A DNA stretch of 64,000 bases from Thermoleophilaceae bacterium (GTDB taxonomy: Bacteria; Actinomycetota; Thermoleophilia; Solirubrobacterales; Thermoleophilaceae): assembly GCA_036378175.1 (NCBI GenBank), contig DASUWY010000034.1, forward strand, positions 117,998-181,997, written 5' to 3'. Shown piece after piece: positions 25,391 through 35,832 of this stretch. The notes beneath the pieces are model-generated. The model did no database searches and was not told where the DNA came from. It saw only the letters and a list, made by a program, of their open reading frames with translations. The translations under genes and the position numbers were made by a program. Numbering within the stretch: position 1 is the stretch's first letter; each line of letters begins with the position of its first letter.

Positions 25391-26449
25391 GTGACGCGCC
25401 CCAGCACCAAGACCCCCGCCCGTACTCGCTCTCGGCAGCGACAGGTGCGGCAGCGCCGCCTTCAGGCGCTGCTGGTTGCTGCCCTGATCGTGCTGGGCGT
25501 GATCGCGGCGCTCGTCTCGCGCGGGGGCGGCGGCCACAAGGCCGGCGATGAGCAGGGTGGCGGCCCGCCACCACCGCGTGCCTCCGTGCAGCCGATCAGG
25601 CTCACGGCCCGGACGGTCGGGCAGCTGAGCGCGCCGGAGCAGGATGCCGCCGTGGCCCAGGTGGGCTCGGCGAGCGCCGTTCTCCTCGGCGGGCTCACGG
25701 CGGCGGACACCTCGCGCGCCGACATCGTGGTGCTCCATGGCGCACGCGAGGTGAGGCACGACCTCCTGCCTGCGGCGGTGCACGACGCCGCGGCCGTGCG
25801 GCTCGGCCGTGCGGTGTACCTCTTCGGCGGCGGAAACCTCACCTCGAGCGACGCCATCGTGAAGGTGAGCCTCTCGGGCCGCCCGGCGCAGGAGGTGGCC
25901 AAGCTGCCCAAGCCGCTCTCGGACATCGCCGCCACCACCGTGGGCAGCACGGCATTCATCGTCGGCGGCTACGACGGCACGAATCCGAGCGACGAGATCC
26001 TCGCGTGGCGGCCGGGCCATCAGATCCAGGTGGTGGGCCACATGCCGCATCCGCTGCGCTACGCGGCGGTTGCGGCGCTTGGGCGTAACCTCTACATCGC
26101 GGGCGGCAGCACACCCACCGGCGCAAGCCACGACGTGCTCGCCTTCGACACAACCACGCGCAAGCTCACAGTCGCGGCGCGGCTGCCGCGCCCCACCACC
26201 CACGCGGCCGCCGCGGCATTCGGCTGCTGCGTCTACGTGATCGGCGGACGGCAGGAGCAGATCGGCACCCCCACCCGGCGCATCTTTGCCGTGCAGCCGG
26301 GCAAGCAGCGCGTCCGGACCGCGGGTCACCTTCCGGTACCGCTCTCGGACCTCGGCGCGGTGCCGCAGCGGCGACGCATCCTGGCCATCGGCGGGCGCTC
26401 CGGCACGGGCACCGTGGCGAGCGTCGTCGAGCTGCGTCCCGCGCAATGA
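25391..26449 (+). CDS. Membrane-anchored Kelch-repeat beta-propeller protein
   Basis: 352 residues from a GTG. A basic N-terminus and one membrane helix (about 25-42) precede a low-complexity linker. Then come about six Kelch-like blades with the GG doublet: ASAVLLGGLT, RAVYLFGGGNLTSSD, STAFIVGGYDGTNPSDE, RNLYIAGGSTPTG, CCVYVIGGRQEQ and RRILAIGGRSGTG. The propeller is extracytoplasmic and probably binds a ligand or glycan. It is translationally coupled (ATGA) to the YVTN-propeller lipoprotein gene, so the two may act together. Confidence 0.88.
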   Translation: MTRPSTKTPARTRSRQRQVRQRRLQALLVAALIVLGVIAALVSRGGGGHKAGDEQGGGPPPPRASVQPIRLTARTVGQLSAPEQDAAVAQVGSASAVLLGGLTAADTSRADIVVLHGAREVRHDLLPAAVHDAAAVRLGRAVYLFGGGNLTSSDAIVKVSLSGRPAQEVAKLPKPLSDIAATTVGSTAFIVGGYDGTNPSDEILAWRPGHQIQVVGHMPHPLRYAAVAALGRNLYIAGGSTPTGASHDVLAFDTTTRKLTVAARLPRPTTHAAAAAFGCCVYVIGGRQEQIGTPTRRIFAVQPGKQRVRTAGHLPVPLSDLGAVPQRRRILAIGGRSGTGTVASVVELRPAQ

Positions 26450-27618
26450 CGCCCGCGAGCCGCCTCGCGATCGCAGCAGCCGCCGTGCTCGCCCTCACGC
26501 TGGCGGGTTGCGGTGGCCACAAGCGGCAGGACCCGACGACGCACACGGCGCAGTCCGCCGTCAAGCCGCCGAGCACGCCGGCGGCGCGCGGGCTCCTGCC
26601 GGGCATGCCGCCGCCGCTCGACCCGCACGACGTCTACGCGGCGGATCACCCGGGCGCAATTGCGGCAGCGGCTAGCAGCGCGCGCCCGCTGGTGTACGTG
26701 CCCAACAGCGAGTCGAACACGGTCGACGAGATCGACCCGCGCACCTACAAGATCGTGCGCCACTTCAGCACCGGCGCGCTTCCGCAGCACGTGGTGCCGT
26801 CATGGGACCTGAAGACGCTGTGGGTGGCGAACGACAACGGAAACAGCCTCACGCCGATCGACCCGCGTACGGGCAAGCCAGGCAAGCCGGTGCCGGTGGA
26901 GGACCCGTACAACCTCTACTTCACGCCCAACGGCCGCTACGCGATCGTCGTGGCCGAGCGGCTCATGCGGCTCGACTTCCGTGACCCGCACACGATGAAG
27001 CTCCACAAGTCGCTGCCCGTGCCCTGTCGGGGCGTGGACCACATGGACTTCACCGCCAACGGGCGCTACGCGCTGGCGAGCTGCGAGTTCTCCGGGCAGA
27101 TGCTCGTTGTGGACATCGAGCGCCAGAAGGTCGACGGCGTCATCTCGCTGCGCCCCGGCAGCATGCCGCAGGATGTGAAGCTCTCACCGGACGGCCGCAT
27201 CTTCTACGTGGCCGACATGGCATCGAACGGCGTCTGGGAGATCTCGGCGCACAGCTTCCACAAGCGCGGCTTCATCGCCACCGGCGCGGGCGCGCACGGG
27301 CTGTACGCGAGCCGGAACTCGCGCTACCTGTACGTGTCGAACCGCAACGAGGGATCGATCTCGCTGATCTCCTTCAAGTCGAGGCACGTGGTGCGCAAGT
27401 GGCACCTGCCGGGCGGCGGGAGCCCGGACATGGGCGGCGTATCGGCGAGCGGCCGCGTGCTGTGGCTCACCGGCCGCTACAACGGCGTTATCTACGCGAT
27501 CAACACTCGCAACGGGCACCTGATCAAATCGGTGCCGGTGGGCGCAGGCCCGCACGGCGCCTGCGTGTGGCCGCAGCCCGGCCGCTACTCGCTGGGACAC
27601 ACCGGCATCCTGCGCTGA
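26446..27618 (+). CDS. Lipoprotein with YVTN-type beta-propeller
   Basis: 390 residues. Signal peptide with lipobox LAGC, lipidated Cys22. Propeller blades of about 42 residues start at about 80: PLVYVPNSESNTVDEIDPRTYKIVRHF, KTLWVANDNGNSLTPIDPRTGK, GRIFYVADMASNGVWEI, RYLYVSNRNEGSISLIS and RVLWLTGRYNGVIYAINTRNG. These are the surface-layer/YVTN family. It is presumably anchored in the outer leaflet of the cytoplasmic membrane. It starts inside the stop of the Kelch gene. No enzymatic signature is seen. Confidence 0.9.
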   Translation: MTPASRLAIAAAAVLALTLAGCGGHKRQDPTTHTAQSAVKPPSTPAARGLLPGMPPPLDPHDVYAADHPGAIAAAASSARPLVYVPNSESNTVDEIDPRTYKIVRHFSTGALPQHVVPSWDLKTLWVANDNGNSLTPIDPRTGKPGKPVPVEDPYNLYFTPNGRYAIVVAERLMRLDFRDPHTMKLHKSLPVPCRGVDHMDFTANGRYALASCEFSGQMLVVDIERQKVDGVISLRPGSMPQDVKLSPDGRIFYVADMASNGVWEISAHSFHKRGFIATGAGAHGLYASRNSRYLYVSNRNEGSISLISFKSRHVVRKWHLPGGGSPDMGGVSASGRVLWLTGRYNGVIYAINTRNGHLIKSVPVGAGPHGACVWPQPGRYSLGHTGILR

Positions 27619-27659: not shown

Positions 27660-29618
27660 GTGAAGGCCGGCCGTCTCGAACTGCTCGGGCAGGATCGCTA
27701 CGTCCTCCGGGGCCCGTTCGGTGACGCGGGCGAGGTGGTGCTGCGCGAGGCGTCGTCGGGCCGGGAGTTGCGCTTCGAGCTGGCGGCCGGTCAGGCAGAG
27801 ATCCCGCTCGACCACTTGCGGCCCGGCGACGGCGCGGCATCGTGGGCGGTGGACGGCGTGAGCGCCGCGGAGGTCCCGCACCCGAGCGAGTTGCCGAGCG
27901 GCGACGGCGTGTACCGCGTGCGCCCGCACGCCGCGTCCGGCGGCGTGCTGACGATCGACGCGAAGCTTCTGCCTCCCTACGCGCGCGTGGATGAGGTGTG
28001 GGTACGCGGCACCGTGCTCGAGGTGCGCTGCGGCGGCGCTTCTGCCACCGCGGTGATCGCGCGGGCGCGCCATGCCGCGGAGGAGCTGCAGGCAGAGGTG
28101 GAGGCGGACACCGCGGGCTTCGTCGCGATGTTCGACCTCGGGCGCTTCGGCTCCGGCACCTGGGACCTGTTCACCGACGACGGCACGCGCCTCGCGGCGC
28201 ATCTGGACGCCATGCCGGATCGCTGGCGCAGCACCGTCTATCCGGCCGTACGCACGCGACCTGGGCTGGCGGTTGAGCCGTACTTCACCGTGGACAACGA
28301 GCTGTCGGTGCGGGCGCGCGCGCCGCGAGCGAGGAAGCCGGCGCGGCGCACTGCGGCCGGCGGAGCGCGCCACAGGCTTGCGCGGCGCGCGAAGCTGCTG
28401 GTGCTCGCCCTGCTGCAACCGCCCGGCCGCGCGTTCGTCCGGCTCGTGGCTGGCCGCCCCGAGCGCGAGCCGGAGGGCGGCCGCCCGAATGTCAAGCTGC
28501 TTCTGCTCCATGCCTATGGCGTGGGAGGGACGATCCGCACCACGTTCAACACCGCGGCATGGCTCGCGCGCTCCCACGACGTGGAGGTGATCAGCGTGAT
28601 CCGCCGGCGCGAGACGCCCGCGTTGAGCTTCCCCGATGGCGTCGCGCTGAGTGCGGTGGACGATCTGCGCGTGACCCGCGGTCCGCTCGAGCGTCTGCTC
28701 CGCGCGCTGCCGAGCGCGCTGGTGCATCCGGAGGACTACGGCTTCAGCGCGTGCAGCCTGCTCACCGACGTTCGACTCACACGGCGGCTGCGCTCGCTCC
28801 CGAGCGGCGTGCTGATCACCACGCGGCCGGGCCTCAACGTCGCGGCGCCCGGGCTCGTGCCGGCGGGCGTGCGGGTGGTGGGGCAGGAGCACATGAACTT
28901 CCTCTCGCACCGGCCAGGCCTGTTCGCGCGCATCAAGCGCGAGTACCCGAAGCTCGATGCGCTGGCGGTGCTCACGGAGGACGACATGCGCGACTACTCG
29001 CGGCTCCTCGAAGGAAGCGGCACGAGGGTGGCGCGCATCCCGAACGCGCTGCCGCACTTCGATGGCCCGCGCGCGACGCTCGACGAGAAGGTGGTGGTGG
29101 CGGCCGGGCGGCTGCGGATGCAGAAGGGCTTCGATCTGCTCATCCGCGCCTACGCGGAGGTGGCGAACGCGCACCCTGACTGGAAGCTCCGCATCTACGG
29201 CTCCGGCGAGCAGCGGGCGGCGCTGCGCGACCTGATCGTCGAGCACGAGCTGTACAACCACGTGTTCCTGATGGGCACGAGCCGCAACCTCCACGAGGAG
29301 CTTGCGAAGGGCTCGACCTTCGCCCTCAGCTCGCGCTATGAGGGCTTCGGGATGGTGATCCTCGAGGCGATGAGCCGCGGCCTGCCCGTGGTGAGCTTCG
29401 ACTGCCCGCGTGGTCCGGGCGAGCTCGTGAGCGACGGCCACGATGGCACCCTCGTGCCCGATGGCGACGTGAACGGGCTGACGCGCGCGCTGGCGGAGCT
29501 GATCGAGGACGAGGAGAAGCGGCGCCGGTACGGCGCGGCGGCGCTGGACAAGGCGCGCCAGTACGAGCTCGCGAACATCGGCCCGCTCTGGGATGCGCTG
29601 CTGGGTGAGCTCCGATGA
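27660..29618 (+). CDS. Glycosyltransferase family 4 with large N-terminal beta-rich domain
   Basis: 652 residues from a GTG. Residues 1 to about 225 look like two beta-sandwich-like segments (GRLELLGQDRYVLRGPFGDAGEVVLRE..., FTVDNELSVRAR) that I cannot assign; a basic hinge follows. From about 275 a GT-B domain begins (NVKLLLLHAYGVGGTIRTTFNTAAWLA), with EHMNFLSHR, KVVVAAGRLRMQKGFDLLIRAYAEV and the donor motif SRYEGFGMVILEAMSRGLPVVSFDCPRGPGELV. The arrangement recalls poly(glycerol-phosphate) glucosyltransferases. It is first in a cluster for CDP-activated glycerol chemistry and is coupled to the next gene (ATGA), so it may decorate or extend a glycerol-phosphate polymer. That role is inference. 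Confidence 0.9.
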   Translation: MKAGRLELLGQDRYVLRGPFGDAGEVVLREASSGRELRFELAAGQAEIPLDHLRPGDGAASWAVDGVSAAEVPHPSELPSGDGVYRVRPHAASGGVLTIDAKLLPPYARVDEVWVRGTVLEVRCGGASATAVIARARHAAEELQAEVEADTAGFVAMFDLGRFGSGTWDLFTDDGTRLAAHLDAMPDRWRSTVYPAVRTRPGLAVEPYFTVDNELSVRARAPRARKPARRTAAGGARHRLARRAKLLVLALLQPPGRAFVRLVAGRPEREPEGGRPNVKLLLLHAYGVGGTIRTTFNTAAWLARSHDVEVISVIRRRETPALSFPDGVALSAVDDLRVTRGPLERLLRALPSALVHPEDYGFSACSLLTDVRLTRRLRSLPSGVLITTRPGLNVAAPGLVPAGVRVVGQEHMNFLSHRPGLFARIKREYPKLDALAVLTEDDMRDYSRLLEGSGTRVARIPNALPHFDGPRATLDEKVVVAAGRLRMQKGFDLLIRAYAEVANAHPDWKLRIYGSGEQRAALRDLIVEHELYNHVFLMGTSRNLHEELAKGSTFALSSRYEGFGMVILEAMSRGLPVVSFDCPRGPGELVSDGHDGTLVPDGDVNGLTRALAELIEDEEKRRRYGAAALDKARQYELANIGPLWDALLGELR

Positions 29619-31534
29619 CGCGGGCGATCGTGCTGGCCACAGCAGCGGCCGAGGACGGCGGTATCGCGGCGGCCCTGCGGCTCGGCGATCGCACGCCGCT
29701 CGAGCGCCTCATCGGCCAGCTCGAGGGCGATGAGATCCACGTGATCGCGCGGCCCACGTTCGCGTCCGCTCTCGACTCGCTGCTGCCGGGCGTGACGGTG
29801 CACGCCTCGCCCGACACCGCGGGCGACCTGCGTGCGGTGGCCGAGCTGGCGAGCGCCGCGGGCGAGGGGGATCTCGTGCTGCTTCCCGGGGAGCTGGTCA
29901 CCCAGCCGTCGCCGCTCGACAGGCTCGGCGGGGGCACCGCCGCGCTCACGATGTCGCGGCGCTCGGAGTTCCCTGTGCGCGCGGCCGGCGGTCAGGTCCT
30001 GAGCTCTTCCAGCTCGTACCACTGGGTCGCGTCGCCCAGCGCGTTCTTTGCCGGTGTCCTGCGAGCGGACGCGCCCGCGCTGGCGGACGCCGCACTCCGC
30101 GCCGCCGATCTCGGCTCGGCGGACGGCGACGTGGTGGCGCTGCTCCTCACCGCGCTCGTGCGCGGCGGTACGCGCGTGGCGGCGCGGGACGCGCGCACGC
30201 AGTTCTGGGCGCGTCCGGTGTCGAAGACCGAATCGGCGCGCGTGGCGGGCGAGCTCGAGGAGTACGACGAGGATCGCGCTCGGCTCGACGCCGCGGTGAA
30301 GGCAAACGACGGCTTCTTCACCACCTTCTTCGTCAGCTCGTACTCGCGTTTCGTGGCGCGGGCGGCCGCACGCGCGCGGCTCACCCCCAACCAGATCACG
30401 GTTCTCTCCCTGTGCGTGGGCGTGCTCGCGGCCGCCGGGTTCGCCACCGGGCACCGCTGGGGCCTGATCGCCGGAGCCGTGCTGCTCCAGGTGGCCTTCA
30501 TGCTCGACTGCGTGGACGGCCAGCTCGCGCGCTACACGCGCAACTTCTCGCGCTTCGGCGCCTGGCTCGACTCCGTGTTCGACCGCGGCAAGGAGTACCT
30601 CGTGTACGCCGGGCTGGCGATCGGGTCGGTGCGCGGCTTCGGCGTGAACGTGTGGCCGCTCGCTGCAGCGGCGCTCAGCCTGCAGACCGTGCGCCACATG
30701 CTCGAGTTCTCGTACTGGGAGGTGCACTACGAGGCACTGGCGTCGGCGCCGCAGCCGCCGCTCGACCAAGCGGGGGACCGGCCGGGGCCACGTCCGAGCG
30801 ACGACGCCGGACTGGTGCGCGCGCCCGCGGCCGTGCACGACGGAGGCGGAGCCGCCGTGCGCGCGCTCGGGATCTCGCGCCTGCTCGACAAGCCGCCGGG
30901 CGTGCACTGGCTGAAGAAGATGATCGTCTTCCCGATCGGCGAGCGCTTCGCGGCGATCTCGCTCACCGCCGCGCTCTTCACTCCGCGCACCACCTTCATC
31001 GTGGTGCTCGTTTGGGGCGGCATCGCAGGCGTCTACTCGCTCGCCGCGCACCTCATGCACACGATCGCCAGGCGCTCCGGCCACGTGGAGTCCCTCTTCG
31101 TCACGGCGCTGAGGGACGACGGTCTCCTCGGGCGCCACCTGCGCGTCCGCGGCCGCTTCAGCTGGCTCGCGCCCGGCGTGATCCGCGCGCTCGAGTACGG
31201 CCTGCTCATCCTCACCGCCGCGCTCGCTCGCGGTGACGCGATGAAGGCCTGCTTCGGGCTGCTCGCCGTGCTGGCCTTCCACCATTACGACACCGTGTAC
31301 CGTCTGCGCCAGCAGGGCGCGCCTCCGCCGGCCTGGGTGAGCATCGCCACGGGCGGCTGGGACGGGAGGATCATCCTCGCGTTCGTCGCTCTGCTGGTGG
31401 CCGTGACCACCGCCGGAATGGCCGTGGCGGCTGTGCTTTTCGCAATCGTGTTCGTGGGCGAGAGTGTGTGGAGCTGGACGCGTCACGCACCCGGGCCCAT
31501 CACATACGCCGACGAGGAGGACGCAAACGAATGA
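29615..31534 (+). CDS. CDP-alcohol phosphotransferase with degenerate nucleotidyltransferase-like N-terminus and DUF5941-like C-terminus
   Basis: 639 residues. Residues 1-200 follow the course of a sugar nucleotidyltransferase (AIVLATAAA..., GDLVLLPGELVTQPSPL) but lack the G-x-G-x-R-L and PK motifs, so this part is probably inactive. The membrane domain (about 240-410) has the complete CDP-alcohol phosphatidyltransferase motif: D298, D301-G302, A305-R306, G315, D319 and D323. A further membrane region (about 440-620) corresponds to the actinobacterial DUF5941 type. It should transfer a phospho-alcohol from a CDP-alcohol to an acceptor in the membrane. The layout recalls inositol-phosphate cytidylyltransferase/DIPP synthase fusions. 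It overlaps both neighbours by four bases. Confidence 0.88.
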   Translation: MTRAIVLATAAAEDGGIAAALRLGDRTPLERLIGQLEGDEIHVIARPTFASALDSLLPGVTVHASPDTAGDLRAVAELASAAGEGDLVLLPGELVTQPSPLDRLGGGTAALTMSRRSEFPVRAAGGQVLSSSSSYHWVASPSAFFAGVLRADAPALADAALRAADLGSADGDVVALLLTALVRGGTRVAARDARTQFWARPVSKTESARVAGELEEYDEDRARLDAAVKANDGFFTTFFVSSYSRFVARAAARARLTPNQITVLSLCVGVLAAAGFATGHRWGLIAGAVLLQVAFMLDCVDGQLARYTRNFSRFGAWLDSVFDRGKEYLVYAGLAIGSVRGFGVNVWPLAAAALSLQTVRHMLEFSYWEVHYEALASAPQPPLDQAGDRPGPRPSDDAGLVRAPAAVHDGGGAAVRALGISRLLDKPPGVHWLKKMIVFPIGERFAAISLTAALFTPRTTFIVVLVWGGIAGVYSLAAHLMHTIARRSGHVESLFVTALRDDGLLGRHLRVRGRFSWLAPGVIRALEYGLLILTAALARGDAMKACFGLLAVLAFHHYDTVYRLRQQGAPPPAWVSIATGGWDGRIILAFVALLVAVTTAGMAVAAVLFAIVFVGESVWSWTRHAPGPITYADEEDANE

Positions 31535-32265
31535 TCGGGATGGTGCTGGCGGCGGGAGCCGGGCGGCGGCTGCAGCCGCTCACCGACGACCTGCCGAAGA
31601 CGCTGCTCCAGATCGATGACGAGCGCTCAATCCTCGACCTCGCGGTGGCCAACCTCAAGCAGGTGGGGCTCGACGAGGTGGTGGTGGTCACGGGGTTCGC
31701 CGCTGCGCGCGTGGACGAGCGCAAGCCCGAGCTCGAGAGGCGCTATGGCGTGAAGATCGAGCTGGTGGAGAACCCCAAGGCCGAGATCTGGAACAACGCC
31801 TACTCCCTCTGGTGCGCGCGCGATGCGTTCGCCGAGGGCGTTCTGCTCGTGAACGGGGACACGGTGCATCCGGCGTCCGTGGAGGAGCGGCTGCTGGCGT
31901 CGCGCGGCGACGACATCGTGATCGCGATCGACGACGATCTCGACAGGCTCAGCGAGGAGTCGATGAAGGTCGGTCTTTCAGAAGAGGGCTTCATGCGCCG
32001 GATCACGAAGCAGTTGCCCATGGACGAGGCCCGCGGCGAGTACATCGGGCTCACGCTGATCGAGCCGGTGGCGGCGGAGCGGCTGGCCGACGCCCTCGAG
32101 GCCACCTGGAAGCGCGACCCGCAGCTCTACTACGAGGACGGCTTCCAGGAGTTCGTGGACCGCGGCGGCGTGGTGGGCACCGCCCCGATCGGCGCGGTGG
32201 ACTGGGTGGAGGTGGACGACCACGACGACCTGGGCCGCGCCCGGGAGCTCGCGTGCCTCTACTAG
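31531..32265 (+). CDS. LicC-like CTP:phospho-alcohol cytidylyltransferase
   Basis: 244 residues from the ATG at 31531 (ATGA overlap). The nucleotide-binding loop AAGAGRRLQPLT (7-18), Lys23 in LPKTLL, the NNAYSL motif (88-93) that marks the phosphocholine cytidylyltransferase (LicC) branch, and Asp110 in VNGD for metal binding are all present. The substrate is not fixed by sequence. The next gene makes glycerol-1-phosphate, so the likely product is CDP-glycerol of the sn-1 type. Phosphocholine is an alternative, but no choline uptake or kinase gene is present here. Confidence 0.88.
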   Translation: MIGMVLAAGAGRRLQPLTDDLPKTLLQIDDERSILDLAVANLKQVGLDEVVVVTGFAAARVDERKPELERRYGVKIELVENPKAEIWNNAYSLWCARDAFAEGVLLVNGDTVHPASVEERLLASRGDDIVIAIDDDLDRLSEESMKVGLSEEGFMRRITKQLPMDEARGEYIGLTLIEPVAAERLADALEATWKRDPQLYYEDGFQEFVDRGGVVGTAPIGAVDWVEVDDHDDLGRARELACLY

Positions 32266-32270
32266 CGCGG

Positions 32271-33314
32271 ATGCTCGCCGCCCCGATGGCGGTGGAGATC
32301 GGACCCGGCGCCGTGGCCGGGCTGGGCACCCTCCTGGCCGACAGGCGCATATCGGCCGGCGGTCACGTGGCCGTGGCCGTGGGACCCGGCTACGGCGACG
32401 AGATCGCCGCGGTGGTGGATCCCGCGCTCGAGAACTGCGACATCGTGCGCGTGGCGGAGGGCGGCTCGCTCGACTCCGCGCTCGCGCTGGCCGACCGCCT
32501 GCGCAAGCACTTCTACGACGCCGTGGTGGGGATCGGCGGCGGCGGCACGCTCGACGTCGCGAAGCACGCGGCGAGCCTGGTGGGCCTGCCGATGGTGGCC
32601 GTGGCCACGAGCCTCTCGCACGACGGCATCGCGTCGCCCGTGTCATCGCTCGCGCACGAGGGCCAGAAGGCCTCCTATGGCGTGCAGATGCCGGTGGCGG
32701 TGCTCGTGGACCTCGACTACGTGCGCACGAGCCCGGTGCGGATGCGCCGCTCAGGCGTTGGCGACGCCATCAGCAACCTAGCCGCGATAGCGGACTGGCG
32801 GCTGGCGAGCCGTGAGCGCGGCGAGCCGATCGACGGGCTGTCCGTAGCCCTGGCGCACACCGGGGCGGAGGCGGTGCTCCACAGCGACGGCGGCGTGGAG
32901 GACGACGACTTCCTTGTGGTGCTGGCGGAGGCGCTGGTGCTGTCCGGCCTCGCGATGGCCACGGCCGGCTCGAGCCGGCCGTGCAGCGGCGCCGATCACG
33001 AGATCGTGCACGCCATCGACCATCTCTTCCCGGACACGGCGCTCCACGGCGAGCTGGCGGGCCTGGGCGCGCGGTTCGCCGCACACCTCCAGGGCGATCC
33101 CGGCCTTGCCGCCGAGCTCGACTCGTGCCTCGCGCGGCACGAGCTGCCGCGCACGCACCGCGATGTCGGCCTGAGCGACGAGCAGTTCGCGCAGGCGGTG
33201 GCCTATGCGCCGCGCACGCGGCCGGACAGGTTCACCATCCTGGAGCATCTCGATCTCGACGAGGAGGCGATCCTCAATCACGTCCACTCGTACGCCGACG
33301 CCCTCGCTGGCTGA
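32271..33314 (+). CDS. sn-Glycerol-1-phosphate dehydrogenase, archaeal EgsA/AraM type
   Basis: 347 residues from the ATG at 32271 (a GTG at 32253 is also possible). The family would reduce dihydroxyacetone phosphate to sn-glycerol-1-phosphate with NAD(P)H. Visible motifs are the nucleotide loop GIGGGGTLDVAK (87-98), SLSHDGIASPVSS (114-126), GVGDAISNLAAIADWRLA with metal ligand Asp165, AGSSRPCSGADHEIVHAID with His243/His247, and LHGELAGLG with His259. These match archaeal G1P dehydrogenases more closely than glycerol dehydrogenases or dehydroquinate synthase. No archaeal lipid genes such as GGGP synthase are in view, so G1P is probably used by the CDP-alcohol enzymes on either side. Confidence 0.9.
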   Translation: MLAAPMAVEIGPGAVAGLGTLLADRRISAGGHVAVAVGPGYGDEIAAVVDPALENCDIVRVAEGGSLDSALALADRLRKHFYDAVVGIGGGGTLDVAKHAASLVGLPMVAVATSLSHDGIASPVSSLAHEGQKASYGVQMPVAVLVDLDYVRTSPVRMRRSGVGDAISNLAAIADWRLASRERGEPIDGLSVALAHTGAEAVLHSDGGVEDDDFLVVLAEALVLSGLAMATAGSSRPCSGADHEIVHAIDHLFPDTALHGELAGLGARFAAHLQGDPGLAAELDSCLARHELPRTHRDVGLSDEQFAQAVAYAPRTRPDRFTILEHLDLDEEAILNHVHSYADALAG

Positions 33315-34068
33315 GATCAGGGCGATCGGCCAGCCGGCCGAGATCTTCGACCGCCACAGCGCCGAGCACTGGGCGGGACGGCTTTACATGCGCCGCGTGT
33401 CGCCGTACCTCACGCGCCTGCTCCTGCCCACGCGCATCTCGCCGAACCAGGTCACCGGCATGATGACCCTGGTGGGCCTGGCGGCGGCCGCGCTCACGAG
33501 CCTCCCGAGCATCGCAGCGGCGGTGGGCGCCGCGCTCCTGGTCCAGCTGCAGCTGCTCCTCGACTGCAGCGACGGCGAGCTCGCGCGCGTCCGCGGCCAG
33601 TCGTCGCCGGCCGGCATCTACCTCGACCGCATCGCCCACTACCTCACCGAGGCCGCGCTCCCGATCGGGCTCGGCATCCGCGCGGACGGCGGCTGGCACT
33701 CGCTCGGCGGCTGGACCACGCTCGGCCTGGTGATCGCGGTGATGGTGCTCCTCATCAAATCGGAGACCGTGCTGGTGAACGTGGCGCGCGCGGAGTCGGG
33801 CCGGCCGAAGGCCGTGGACGCCCGGTCGGTGGCCGCTCCGCGGGGCGGCCTGCTGCGCCGGATCCGGCGCGCTGTGGGCCTGTTGCCGTTCTTCAGAGCC
33901 TTCGTCGCGGTGGAGTTCTCATTGCTAGCCTTGGCCGCTGCGATCGCGGACACGGCCGCGGGAGACCAGATCGGCTCGCGCGTGCTCGTGATTGCGCTTC
34001 TGCCGGTGGGGGCAATAACCCTCGTCGGCCATCTCGTGGCGATTCTCGCGTCGGACCGCCTACGGTGA
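33307..34068 (+). CDS. CDP-alcohol phosphotransferase with His in place of the last motif Asp; probable CTG start
   Basis: 253 residues if the CTG at 33307 is used. The next ATG (33388) would cut off a conserved-looking stretch, and the ATG at 33205 adds 34 low-complexity residues. Five or six membrane helices. The CAP motif reads D86, D89-G90, A93-R94, G103, D107, but the fourth Asp is His111 (LDRIAHYLTE). That Asp is the proposed catalytic base in structures of the family, so the chemistry may differ or His may serve. The gene overlaps the G1P dehydrogenase stop by 8 bases and is followed by the ABC exporter. A lipid- or polymer-forming transfer of phosphoglycerol is inferred. Confidence 0.85.
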   Translation: MAEIRAIGQPAEIFDRHSAEHWAGRLYMRRVSPYLTRLLLPTRISPNQVTGMMTLVGLAAAALTSLPSIAAAVGAALLVQLQLLLDCSDGELARVRGQSSPAGIYLDRIAHYLTEAALPIGLGIRADGGWHSLGGWTTLGLVIAVMVLLIKSETVLVNVARAESGRPKAVDARSVAAPRGGLLRRIRRAVGLLPFFRAFVAVEFSLLALAAAIADTAAGDQIGSRVLVIALLPVGAITLVGHLVAILASDRLR

Positions 34069-34086
34069 CCTCGCGAGGCGGCACAC

Positions 34087-34092
34087 TTAATT
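34087..34092 (+). promoter_or_regulatory. Candidate internal -10 (TTAATT)
   Basis: The only AT-rich patch in the 29-base gap before the ABC permease, five bases from its ATG at 34098. It may give an extra leaderless transcript for the exporter. Confidence 0.25.
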
Positions 34093-34097
34093 GAGCA

Positions 34098-35030
34098 ATG
34101 AGCACGACCTCGGCTGAAGAAAAGGCAAAGGAAGCCATCGCCGCGGAGCGCGAGGCGCTCGAAGAGGGCCATCTCGTACCCCAGGCGTACCGCGACGACG
34201 AGTACGCCGAGCGCCACGTCTACCTGCCGCACAAGGTGGGCCTGCCGCCGATGGGCCACTACCTCCGCCTCGTGTGGAAGCGGCGCGAGTTCGCCTTCGA
34301 GCTTTCGCGCACCACCATGCGGGCGAAGCACTTCGACACCGCGTTCGGCCAGATGTGGCTCCTGCTCAACCCGCTGCTGCTCGGCTCGGTCTACTTCCTG
34401 CTGGTGGACCTGATCCGCCACCACCCGCGGCCGCTCAGCTTCTTCGCCCACCTTCTCGGCGGCCTCTTTCTCTTCCAGGTGCTCCACACGGCGGCGACCG
34501 AGGGGTCCAACTCCGTCGTGCGCGGCGGCGGCCTGATACTCAACACCGCGTTCCCGCGGACGCTCTTGCCGCTCGCCTCGGTCACCACCTCGTTCAAGCG
34601 CTTCGTGCCGACGATGGCGGTGTACTTCGTGATCCACTTCGCGGCCGGTCTCGGGCTGACGGTGGAGATGCTGTGGGCGCTTCCGATCATCGTCATGGTC
34701 ACCGTGTTCTCCGCGGGCTTCGCGATGTTCTGCGGCGCCGCCCAGGTGTACTTCCGCGACCTCGCGAGCTTCCTGCCCTACCTGCTGCGGATCTGGATGT
34801 ACGTGTCGCCGATCCTCTACTACTGGAACGACGTGCCCAAGCACATCCAGCACTGGCTGATGCTCAACCCGATGGCGTCGATGCTCGCGGCATGGAGCGA
34901 TGTGCTGAACAAGGGGCAGGCGCCGCCCCTGAACCTCATGGTCATCGGCACCGGGTGGGCGATCTTCGGGCTCATCTTCGGGGCGCTGTTCTTCATCTCG
35001 AGGGAGCGTGACTTTGCCGTCCGTATCTGA
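34098..35030 (+). CDS. ABC-2 type polysaccharide/teichoic-acid exporter permease (Wzm/TagG-like)
   Basis: 310 residues. A 60-residue charged cytosolic N-terminus precedes six membrane helices. Family features include KHFDTAFGQMWLLLNPLLLGSVYFLLV at the first helix, RTLLPLASVTTSFKRFVPTMAVYFVIH, VYFRDLASFLPYLLRIWMYVSPILYYWNDVP and a final NPMASMLAAWSDVL. It should form the membrane pore for an undecaprenyl-linked or lipid-linked glycan or polyol-phosphate polymer. Its partner ATPase gene overlaps it by 23 bases. Its place after the CDP-alcohol genes points to export of their product. Confidence 0.93.
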   Translation: MSTTSAEEKAKEAIAAEREALEEGHLVPQAYRDDEYAERHVYLPHKVGLPPMGHYLRLVWKRREFAFELSRTTMRAKHFDTAFGQMWLLLNPLLLGSVYFLLVDLIRHHPRPLSFFAHLLGGLFLFQVLHTAATEGSNSVVRGGGLILNTAFPRTLLPLASVTTSFKRFVPTMAVYFVIHFAAGLGLTVEMLWALPIIVMVTVFSAGFAMFCGAAQVYFRDLASFLPYLLRIWMYVSPILYYWNDVPKHIQHWLMLNPMASMLAAWSDVLNKGQAPPLNLMVIGTGWAIFGLIFGALFFISRERDFAVRI

Positions 35031-35832
35031 GCAGGCGCAGGAGAGCGCGACCTTGCCGTCCGCCTCCGAGCCGAGCATCAAGGTCGAGAACGTCTCGATC
35101 ACCTACCGCACCGCGTACGAGAAGGTGCCCACGCTGCGCACCACGCTGCTCCGCCTCGGCCGCCGCGAGAAGCTCGTGCGCGAGATCGAGGCCGTGAAGA
35201 ACGTGTCCTTCCAGGTGGAGAAGGGCACGGTGCTGGGCGTGGTCGGCGCCAACGGGGCGGGCAAGTCCACGCTCGTGCGCACGATCGCGGGGATCCTGCC
35301 GCCGACCGAGGGCCGGGTGGAGGTGCTCGGGCGCGTGAGCACGCTGCTGGCGCTCGGAGTGGGCTTCAACCGCGACCTCAGCGGGCGTGAGAATGTGATC
35401 CTCGGCGGCCTCGCGGCTGGGCTCAACAAGGATGAGCTCGAGGAGAAGTACGACGAGATCGTGGACTTCGCCGAGCTCGGCGAGTTCATGGACCTGCCGA
35501 TGCGCGCCTATTCGTCGGGCATGTACGGCCGCCTCGCCTTCGCGGTGGCGATCCACATGGAGCCGGACATCCTGCTGATCGACGAGGCGCTGTCCGTGGG
35601 CGACGCCAAGTTCCGCCGCAAGTCCTTCCAGCGCATGCGCGACCTATGCGCGCAGGACCGGACGATCGTCCTCGTTAGCCACGCCTTCGGCTCGATCCGC
35701 GAGCTCTGCCATCAGGCCGTGTGGATGAACAAGGGCCACATGGAGATGTGGGGCGAGGCCAATGAGGTTGTGGATGCCTACCGGGACTTCCTCGGGGTGA
35801 AGGAAGACCGGACGGATAAGGAAGATCTCTAG
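35008..35832 (+). CDS. ABC transporter ATPase for polysaccharide export (Wzt/TagH-like)
   Basis: 274 residues from a GTG. Walker A GANGAGKST (80-88), the LSGRENV segment, signature YSSGMYGRLAFAVA, Walker B ILLIDEALSVGDAKF and switch His in LVSHAFGSI. There is no C-terminal carbohydrate-binding domain of the long Wzt kind, so the protein resembles the short TagH-type. The first 22 residues contain an imperfect duplication (TLPSVSE and TLPSASE). It powers the permease encoded just upstream and ends the seven-gene cluster. Confidence 0.95.
   Translation: MTLPSVSEQAQESATLPSASEPSIKVENVSITYRTAYEKVPTLRTTLLRLGRREKLVREIEAVKNVSFQVEKGTVLGVVGANGAGKSTLVRTIAGILPPTEGRVEVLGRVSTLLALGVGFNRDLSGRENVILGGLAAGLNKDELEEKYDEIVDFAELGEFMDLPMRAYSSGMYGRLAFAVAIHMEPDILLIDEALSVGDAKFRRKSFQRMRDLCAQDRTIVLVSHAFGSIRELCHQAVWMNKGHMEMWGEANEVVDAYRDFLGVKEDRTDKEDL

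Follow-up and report, generated by a model that had tools for sequence, protein, structure and literature searches.

We consider it fairly probable that seven tightly packed open reading frames (ORFs) of a Thermoleophilaceae bacterium encode a pathway in which sn-glycerol-1-phosphate (G1P) is synthesized, converted into CDP-1-glycerol and passed to an acceptor, the exported product being a teichoic-acid-like surface polymer or lipid. The ORFs occupy positions 27660–35832, all on the plus strand, of a 64,000-nucleotide stretch (the window; assembly GCA_036378175.1, contig DASUWY010000034.1, positions 117,998 to 181,997), which lies within a single contig of a 4.29 Mb draft genome; ORFs and translations were read from the sequence. 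They encode, in order, a GT4-type glycosyltransferase (GT), a first CDP-alcohol phosphotransferase (CDP-AP; this copy designated AP1), a LicC-fold cytidylyltransferase, a homologue of archaeal-type G1P dehydrogenase (G1PDH), a second CDP-AP (AP2) and the permease and ATPase of a Wzm/Wzt-type exporter. The LicC–G1PDH–CDP-AP segment is the core of a conserved actinobacterial module, around which AP1 and the exporter vary. The strongest new points are this core, the swap to a TarF-family partner in part of a second G1PDH class, and searches that returned neither TarD over cut-off nor full-length PcrB. The novelty lies in the predicted enantiomer and the enzyme set; nucleotide-activated polyol-phosphate chemistry at cell surfaces is a known kind.

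In the proposed pathway, the G1PDH would reduce dihydroxyacetone phosphate to G1P, and the LicC-fold enzyme would combine G1P with CTP to give CDP-1-glycerol, the mirror image of what TarD makes. AP1, AP2 or both would move the glycerol-1-phosphoryl group onto a membrane acceptor with release of CMP. The acceptor is probably a glycolipid, which the GT would make or extend, and Wzm/Wzt would flip the product. The glycerophosphate in this product would have the hand of lipoteichoic acid (LTA) and phosphatidylglycerol, with a nucleotide donor as its source instead of phosphatidylglycerol. The reactions, their stereochemistry and the acceptor are predictions built on observed gene content, gene order, conservation, family placement and searched absences. 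An earlier note on this DNA had already read the cluster as activating G1P to CDP-glycerol of the opposite hand and building it into an exported lipid or polymer; synteny, TarF-family neighbours and the lack of full-length PcrB and of TarD over cut-off in 54 genomes now lend support to that reading, which we still infer.

Conservation of the module core

A scan of named genomes returned at least 585 G1PDH relatives, of which the best 80 loci were kept; all were actinobacterial by title and none came from Streptomyces. Being the best 80 of at least 585, these loci represent the closest relatives. Adjacency was scored by tblastn: the LicC-like match had to end no more than 300 bases from the start of the G1PDH gene, and the CDP-AP match to begin no more than 500 bases from its end. 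We took the counts from tblastn because gene calls on the related loci, made with a simple GC-position script, chose wrong frames in places; ORF-family numbers from these calls are rough, and family 5 contains both AP1 and Wzm ORFs. A LicC-like gene lay directly upstream of the G1PDH gene in all 79 loci evaluable on that side, the remaining locus being too short. Downstream, a CDP-AP gene lay directly beside it in 75 of 79 evaluable loci, comprising 34 of the AP2 type and 41 of a second type found in Micromonosporaceae and relatives. Conservation of gene order in other actinobacteria had been proposed as a check in the earlier note; for the core, it was borne out among these best 80 loci. The four loci without a CDP-AP directly downstream were L050, L051, L054 and L057; the first of these has a Wzm-like ORF (identified by eye) and Wzt directly after the G1PDH gene. 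The closest named relative among the matches listed was L049, a Thermoleophilaceae metagenome-assembled genome with a 95 % identical G1PDH.

The longer gene order of the window was also evident in the wider genome sample. One genome of genus g73, which we take from inference to be probably Streptomyces, displayed the order AP1, LicC, G1PDH, CDP-AP, GT2, Wzm, Wzt, whilst genome G015 had the same gene order as the window and G046 a similar one with a GT2 gene. The cluster is not a chance assembly, since its core gene order is found again in different actinobacterial genera. Separately, an IspD/TarI-like gene was observed near the module in L065, L085, L097 and similar loci (PF01128 in L097; by eye, an SDR-like fusion in some), together with GT2 genes and a gene for an LCP ligase (PF03816 in L097), an arrangement resembling a ribitol-type wall polymer locus.

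Across 396 sampled genomes of the phylum, 42 carried a G1PDH match at E≤1e-30. These fell into two groups, one of 21 genomes (the window's own included) with at least 49 % identity and one of 21 genomes with 35–45 % identity. A LicC-like match was present within 1.5 kb of the G1PDH gene in 37 of 43 loci in sampled genomes, a count that includes the window and the query sources G017 (counted positive) and G063 (counted as LicC negative). By class, the proportion was 23/27 at ≥49 % identity and 14/16 at 35–45 % identity, the latter including four weak matches of 72–94 bits (L042, L045, L047 and L048). As a control, the window's own genome has four other Fe-ADH_2 matches, and none of these had a LicC-like neighbour within the same distance. 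Some genomes had a second G1PDH copy, as seen in L022 (G001:C124, cut by a contig end) and G386:C1; one of the G386 copies (L037) lacked any LicC-like or CDP-AP match within 1.5 kb.

In three of the 16 second-class loci (L137 in G002, L136 in G017 and L138 in G034), a PF04464 gene stood beside the LicC-like/G1PDH pair. The G017 protein was TarF-like, scoring 274.9 bits against a cut-off of 550. TarF-family enzymes use CDP-glycerol. Since members of two unrelated transferase families, TarF and CDP-AP, occur next to the same kind of dehydrogenase–cytidylyltransferase pair, CDP-glycerol is the simplest candidate for the intermediate they share. The same three loci also contained a mannitol-dehydrogenase-like ORF (by eye) close to these genes. 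A third G1PDH context was seen in another actinobacterial family (L149 in G106 and L151 in G077), where the G1PDH gene lay beside a phosphodiesterase-like ORF of ~535 aa (by eye), with a bacterial sugar transferase-like gene nearby and a weak LicC-like match upstream.

Core enzymes and phosphotransferases

The G1PDH gene (32271..33314, plus strand; Fe-ADH_2) has an ATG start, with a GTG at 32253 as a possible alternative. Its best NCBIfam model was PRK00843, NAD(P)-dependent G1P dehydrogenase, at 241.5 bits, compared with 53.4 bits for the glycerol dehydrogenase model. In a single-sequence search its top PDB matches were the G1P dehydrogenases 4rgq and 4rfl (E ~6e-41), whilst the family profile placed 3ce9 first (3.9e-66) and 4rgq second (1.5e-62), followed by 4rfl and 5fb3. 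The motifs SHDGIASP, GVGD, SGADHEIVH and LHGE that the earlier note had listed all occur in the translation, and GVGD, SGADHE and LHGE align with GMGD, SGSEHL and LHGE of 4rgq. Across 17 aligned G1PDHs, His242 and His258 were invariant and Asp164 nearly so; we take these three residues to be the metal ligands.

The 244 aa product of the neighbouring gene (31531..32265, plus strand; NTP_transferase) is a predicted CTP:G1P cytidylyltransferase. LicC (1jyk) was its best PDB match, followed by 4jd0 from T. maritima, and profile search added PntC (6pd1). The signature GAGRRLxPxTDxLPK was kept in 11/11 aligned LicC-like sequences, and the NGDT and EVD positions were likewise invariant. The nucleotidyltransferase (NTase) signature loop and the NGDT and EVD positions are presumably catalytic.

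AP1 (29615..31534, plus strand; 639 aa) combines an NTase-like, cytidylyltransferase-like N-terminal domain with a CDP-AP domain (PF01066) and DUF5941, a domain for which no mention was found in open-licence PubMed Central papers. Its D-x2-DG-x2-AR-x8-G-x3-D-x3-D sequence, which we take to be the CDP-AP motif pattern, is intact. In the corresponding ORF family of the named loci the motif was present in 21 of 30 members, the other nine including Wzm ORFs and probable wrong frames. The N-terminal domain lacks the signature loop and probably serves a structural role only. The best Foldseek match of AP1 was 4mnd, and the protein resembles A. fulgidus IPCT-DIPPS and AF2299; the AP1 model was built from 19 sequences, with the DUF5941 part poorly modelled, and the structure comparison list covers mainly residues 1–222. 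AP2 (33205..34068, plus strand, with the conserved part from ~33304) matched PF01066 at 1.5e-7, and both CDP-APs scored with the NCBIfam archaetidylinositol phosphate synthase model.

Alternative explanations and known pathways

Known routes that might account for the gene pair were searched for in 54 G1PDH-bearing genomes, draft or complete, 43 of which are ≥90 % complete and ≤5 % contaminated. The earlier note had not seen PcrB in the sequence, and this held more widely, as no full-length match was found in any of the 54; fragments of up to 65/226 positions occurred in seven, of which one passed the cut-off and another, from the window's own genome, did not reach it. TarD (TIGR01518) was over cut-off in 0/54 genomes and gave no match at E≤0.001 in the own genome, whilst controls were over cut-off in 2/14. 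LicD was absent from the own genome and present in one of 26 cluster-type genomes as a partial match of 49/227 positions. PF04464 (TagF/TarF-family) proteins were found in 25 of the 54, with two in the own genome. These results for PcrB, TarD and LicD mean that the Bacillus ether-lipid route, TarD supply and a lic operon explain the pair poorly, and, with no match over cut-off in the 54 genomes, standard supply of CDP-glycerol by TarD was rejected as a source.

Several observations weigh against the proposed pathway. The G1PDH score falls below the curated PRK00843 equivalog cut-off of 413, so we term the protein a homologue rather than a certified equivalog, and 3ce9, the top profile match of its family, was deposited as a glycerol dehydrogenase. 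LicC-fold enzymes take phosphocholine, aminoethylphosphonate, inositol-1-phosphate or phosphoglycerate; with several substrates known, sequence does not fix the substrate, and G1P is a prediction. The last motif Asp is His in AP2, both in the window (by eye) and in 34/34 ORF-family members of the named loci; AP2 is still matched by PF01066 despite this change, and AP1 and the Micromonosporaceae-type CDP-AP are canonical. AP1 lay upstream in 26 of 73 evaluable named loci, and the exporter was not constant: of the 57 named loci longer than 20 kb, five had a Wzt match of at least 100 bits. Six of the 43 loci of the wider sample had no LicC-like match within 1.5 kb (L022 and L046, at contig edges, and L028, L030, L037 and L043, the last with a LicC-like gene ~4 kb from the G1PDH gene), and the 43-locus count leaves out 14 further G1PDH matches, 13 of them of the distant class. 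The search for CDP-glycerol synthases covered one kind, TarD, and weak TIGR01518 relatives were present in 18/54 genomes, the best at 65.6 bits against a cut-off of 165.4. All absences are weaker in the 11/54 genomes outside the ≥90 % complete, ≤5 % contaminated class.

Some of these points are shared with other explanations. The dehydrogenase and the LicC-fold enzyme might act on a different phospho-alcohol and supply another CDP-polyol for the same kind of surface polymer, which would accord with the missed equivalog cut-off and the range of substrates within the LicC-fold family. The IspD/TarI-like gene (PF01128) nearby in some Streptosporangiales and related loci also implies that CDP-polyol chemistry may be local. 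We regard this as unlikely, given that the G1PDH model beats the glycerol dehydrogenase model widely, that most top PDB matches belong to the G1PDH class and that part of the second G1PDH class has a TarF-like partner. That same TarF-like swap, along with the GT and Wzm/Wzt genes of the window cluster and several other lineages, argues against a small soluble phosphodiester made by the CDP-APs from CDP-1-glycerol, in the manner of the glycerophosphoinositol and di-inositol-phosphate solutes of thermophiles. AP1 is indeed most like A. fulgidus IPCT-DIPPS and AF2299, Micromonosporaceae-type loci have LicC–G1PDH–CDP-AP without a Wzt match of at least 100 bits, and CDP-1-glycerol features in archaeal glycerophosphoinositol synthesis in the available text of PMC8262930, but many of the hosts are mesophiles, as is generally known, and we find a soluble product distinctly improbable.

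Two further explanations would give the cluster a different purpose. G1P could be the precursor of an ether lipid, either archaeal-type or prenylated, much as AraM/PcrB use it in Bacillus, and the CDP-APs would then attach the head groups. G1PDH is an archaeal lipid enzyme, both CDP-APs score with archaetidylinositol phosphate synthase, and crtB is listed in the Streptomyces block described below (PMC13118837, in part); nevertheless, a cytidylyltransferase for a small phospho-alcohol would be superfluous in such a route, and the lack of a full-length PcrB match in the 54 genomes led us to reject this explanation as very improbable. The LicC-like enzyme might instead be a phosphocholine cytidylyltransferase decorating a surface glycan, with the dehydrogenase incidental. 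Its closest solved structure is LicC, and such genes are often so named in databases, but the G1PDH gene was its direct neighbour in every evaluable named locus and LicD was found in one of 26 cluster-type genomes, in part, so this explanation was also rejected and is scarcely credible.

The CDP-1-glycerol pathway, as proposed, shares features with several known systems. Like TarD/TarF (TagD/TagF) wall teichoic acid synthesis, it would join a glycerophosphate to CTP, transfer it to a surface glycan and use a TagGH-type exporter; TarD/TarF uses sn-glycerol-3-phosphate and a TarD of another fold, whereas the cluster is predicted to use G1P, a LicC-fold enzyme and CDP-APs. LtaS-made LTA contains glycerophosphate of the sn-1 hand, as predicted for the cluster product, but takes the unit from phosphatidylglycerol where we predict a nucleotide donor. 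The archaeal/Aquifex glycerophosphoinositol pathway and IPCT-DIPPS likewise employ CDP-glycerol with CDP-AP chemistry and an NTase–CDP-AP fusion. Their product is a soluble solute, whilst the cluster has a separate LicC-fold enzyme, a GT and an exporter, and an AP1 whose NTase-like domain is without the signature loop. AraM/PcrB of Bacillales also includes a bacterial G1PDH, but there G1P is prenylated by PcrB, of which the 54 G1PDH-bearing genomes have no full match. LicC, PntC and CpgD have the same fold and signature, and they activate small phospho- or phosphono-compounds destined for cell surfaces; the substrates given in the portions of the published work available are phosphocholine, aminoethylphosphonate and phosphoglycerate, with G1P not among them. 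From the available part of a preprint (PMC13228409), CpgD is a LicC-fold enzyme acting on phosphoglycerate, a precedent for a three-carbon phospho-acid, and known glycerol-3-phosphate cytidylyltransferases have no structural homology to it.

A Streptomyces synteny block of araM, tagH, tagG, CDP-AP, sugar phosphate nucleotidyltransferase, GT2 and crtB (PMC13118837, 2026) is apparently the same locus, and this was the one paper found to name the synteny; its accessible sections assign the block to teichoic acid biosynthesis and to gene duplication, without a CDP-1-glycerol pathway. Within the open-licence PubMed Central literature, as far as its available text extends and with subscription papers outside the search, no proposal of a bacterial route from G1P to CDP-1-glycerol was found. 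CDP-1-glycerol is described in the available text of PMC8262930 as probably absent from bacteria and used in archaeal glycerophosphoinositol synthesis, a view that a widespread module, if our reading is true, would overturn. If the predicted product is correct, the cluster represents a new route to teichoic-acid-like polymers from mirror-image glycerol phosphate. A large share of the deep bacterial G1PDH clan, which has figured in debate over the last common ancestor's membrane, is actinobacterial (PMC6431249, in part); if a surface-polymer role holds, these genes would not necessarily be evidence about membrane lipids.

The cluster also provides a concrete gene set for the question of LTA in actinobacteria without a clear LtaS orthologue. 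Excerpts of two 2011 papers (PMC3196553, PMC3089915) report polyglycerophosphate (PGP-type) LTA in Streptomyces and other actinobacteria in which no LtaS orthologue is clear; for its synthesis they go no further than proposing an alternative pathway. Tentatively, and with more doubt than confidence, we suggest that an actinobacterial polymer route from nucleotide-activated G1P, in which CDP-APs polymerize or attach the units, is the missing LtaS-independent pathway to polyglycerophosphate LTA, which would explain an archaeal-lipid enzyme in many bacteria without archaeal lipid. This link to LTA is a proposal and not a result. The available portion of PMC3196553 favours overlap with wall teichoic acid synthesis on the basis of matching polymer structures and the presence of tagB/tagF orthologues; such overlap fits a TagF route too, and speaks against treating the cluster as the sole LTA candidate.

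Cluster layout and flanking genes

All seven plus-strand genes named in the earlier note were present with the family identities claimed for them, as judged from the ORF list and Pfam and NCBIfam profiles. Its description of the genes as mostly overlapping by 4–23 bases was about right, apart from one gap and two unclear starts. The GT/AP1 and AP1/LicC junctions are both 4-base overlaps, and Wzm and Wzt overlap by 23 bases. The LicC/G1PDH junction is an overlap of 13 if G1PDH starts at GTG 32253 and a gap of 5 if it starts at ATG 32271. The start of AP2 is uncertain, as the sole usual start codon nearby, ATG 33205, gives a 110-base overlap with G1PDH and conserved protein begins at ~33304. A 29-base gap separates AP2 from Wzm.

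The GT (27660..29618, plus strand; 652 aa, GTG start) matched PF00534 at 7e-39 over residues 474–628. A relative adjoins AP1 in L049, L052 and L143 and lies a few kb off on the opposite strand in L144; many other loci instead have a GT2 gene after AP2. The exporter comprises a Wzm-like ABC-2 permease (34098..35030, plus strand) adjoining a Wzt/TagH-like ATPase of 274 aa (35008..35832, plus strand; ABC_tran), a TagGH-type pairing in which no NCBIfam equivalog cut-off was reached. The permease matched PF01061 (ABC2_membrane) at 4.7e-6, just below the cut-off (26.7 versus 26.9 bits), and the galactan model NF050109 at 6.2e-10 (39 bits against a cut-off of 380). The ATPase matched the teichoic acid and galactan export models PRK13545 (6.3e-66), NF050108 (2.5e-61) and PRK13546 (5.6e-57), all under their curated cut-offs. 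Directly upstream on the same strand (25391–27618), two beta-propeller-type genes, one Kelch-like (by eye) and one YncE-like (PF21783), end 41 bases before the GT gene.

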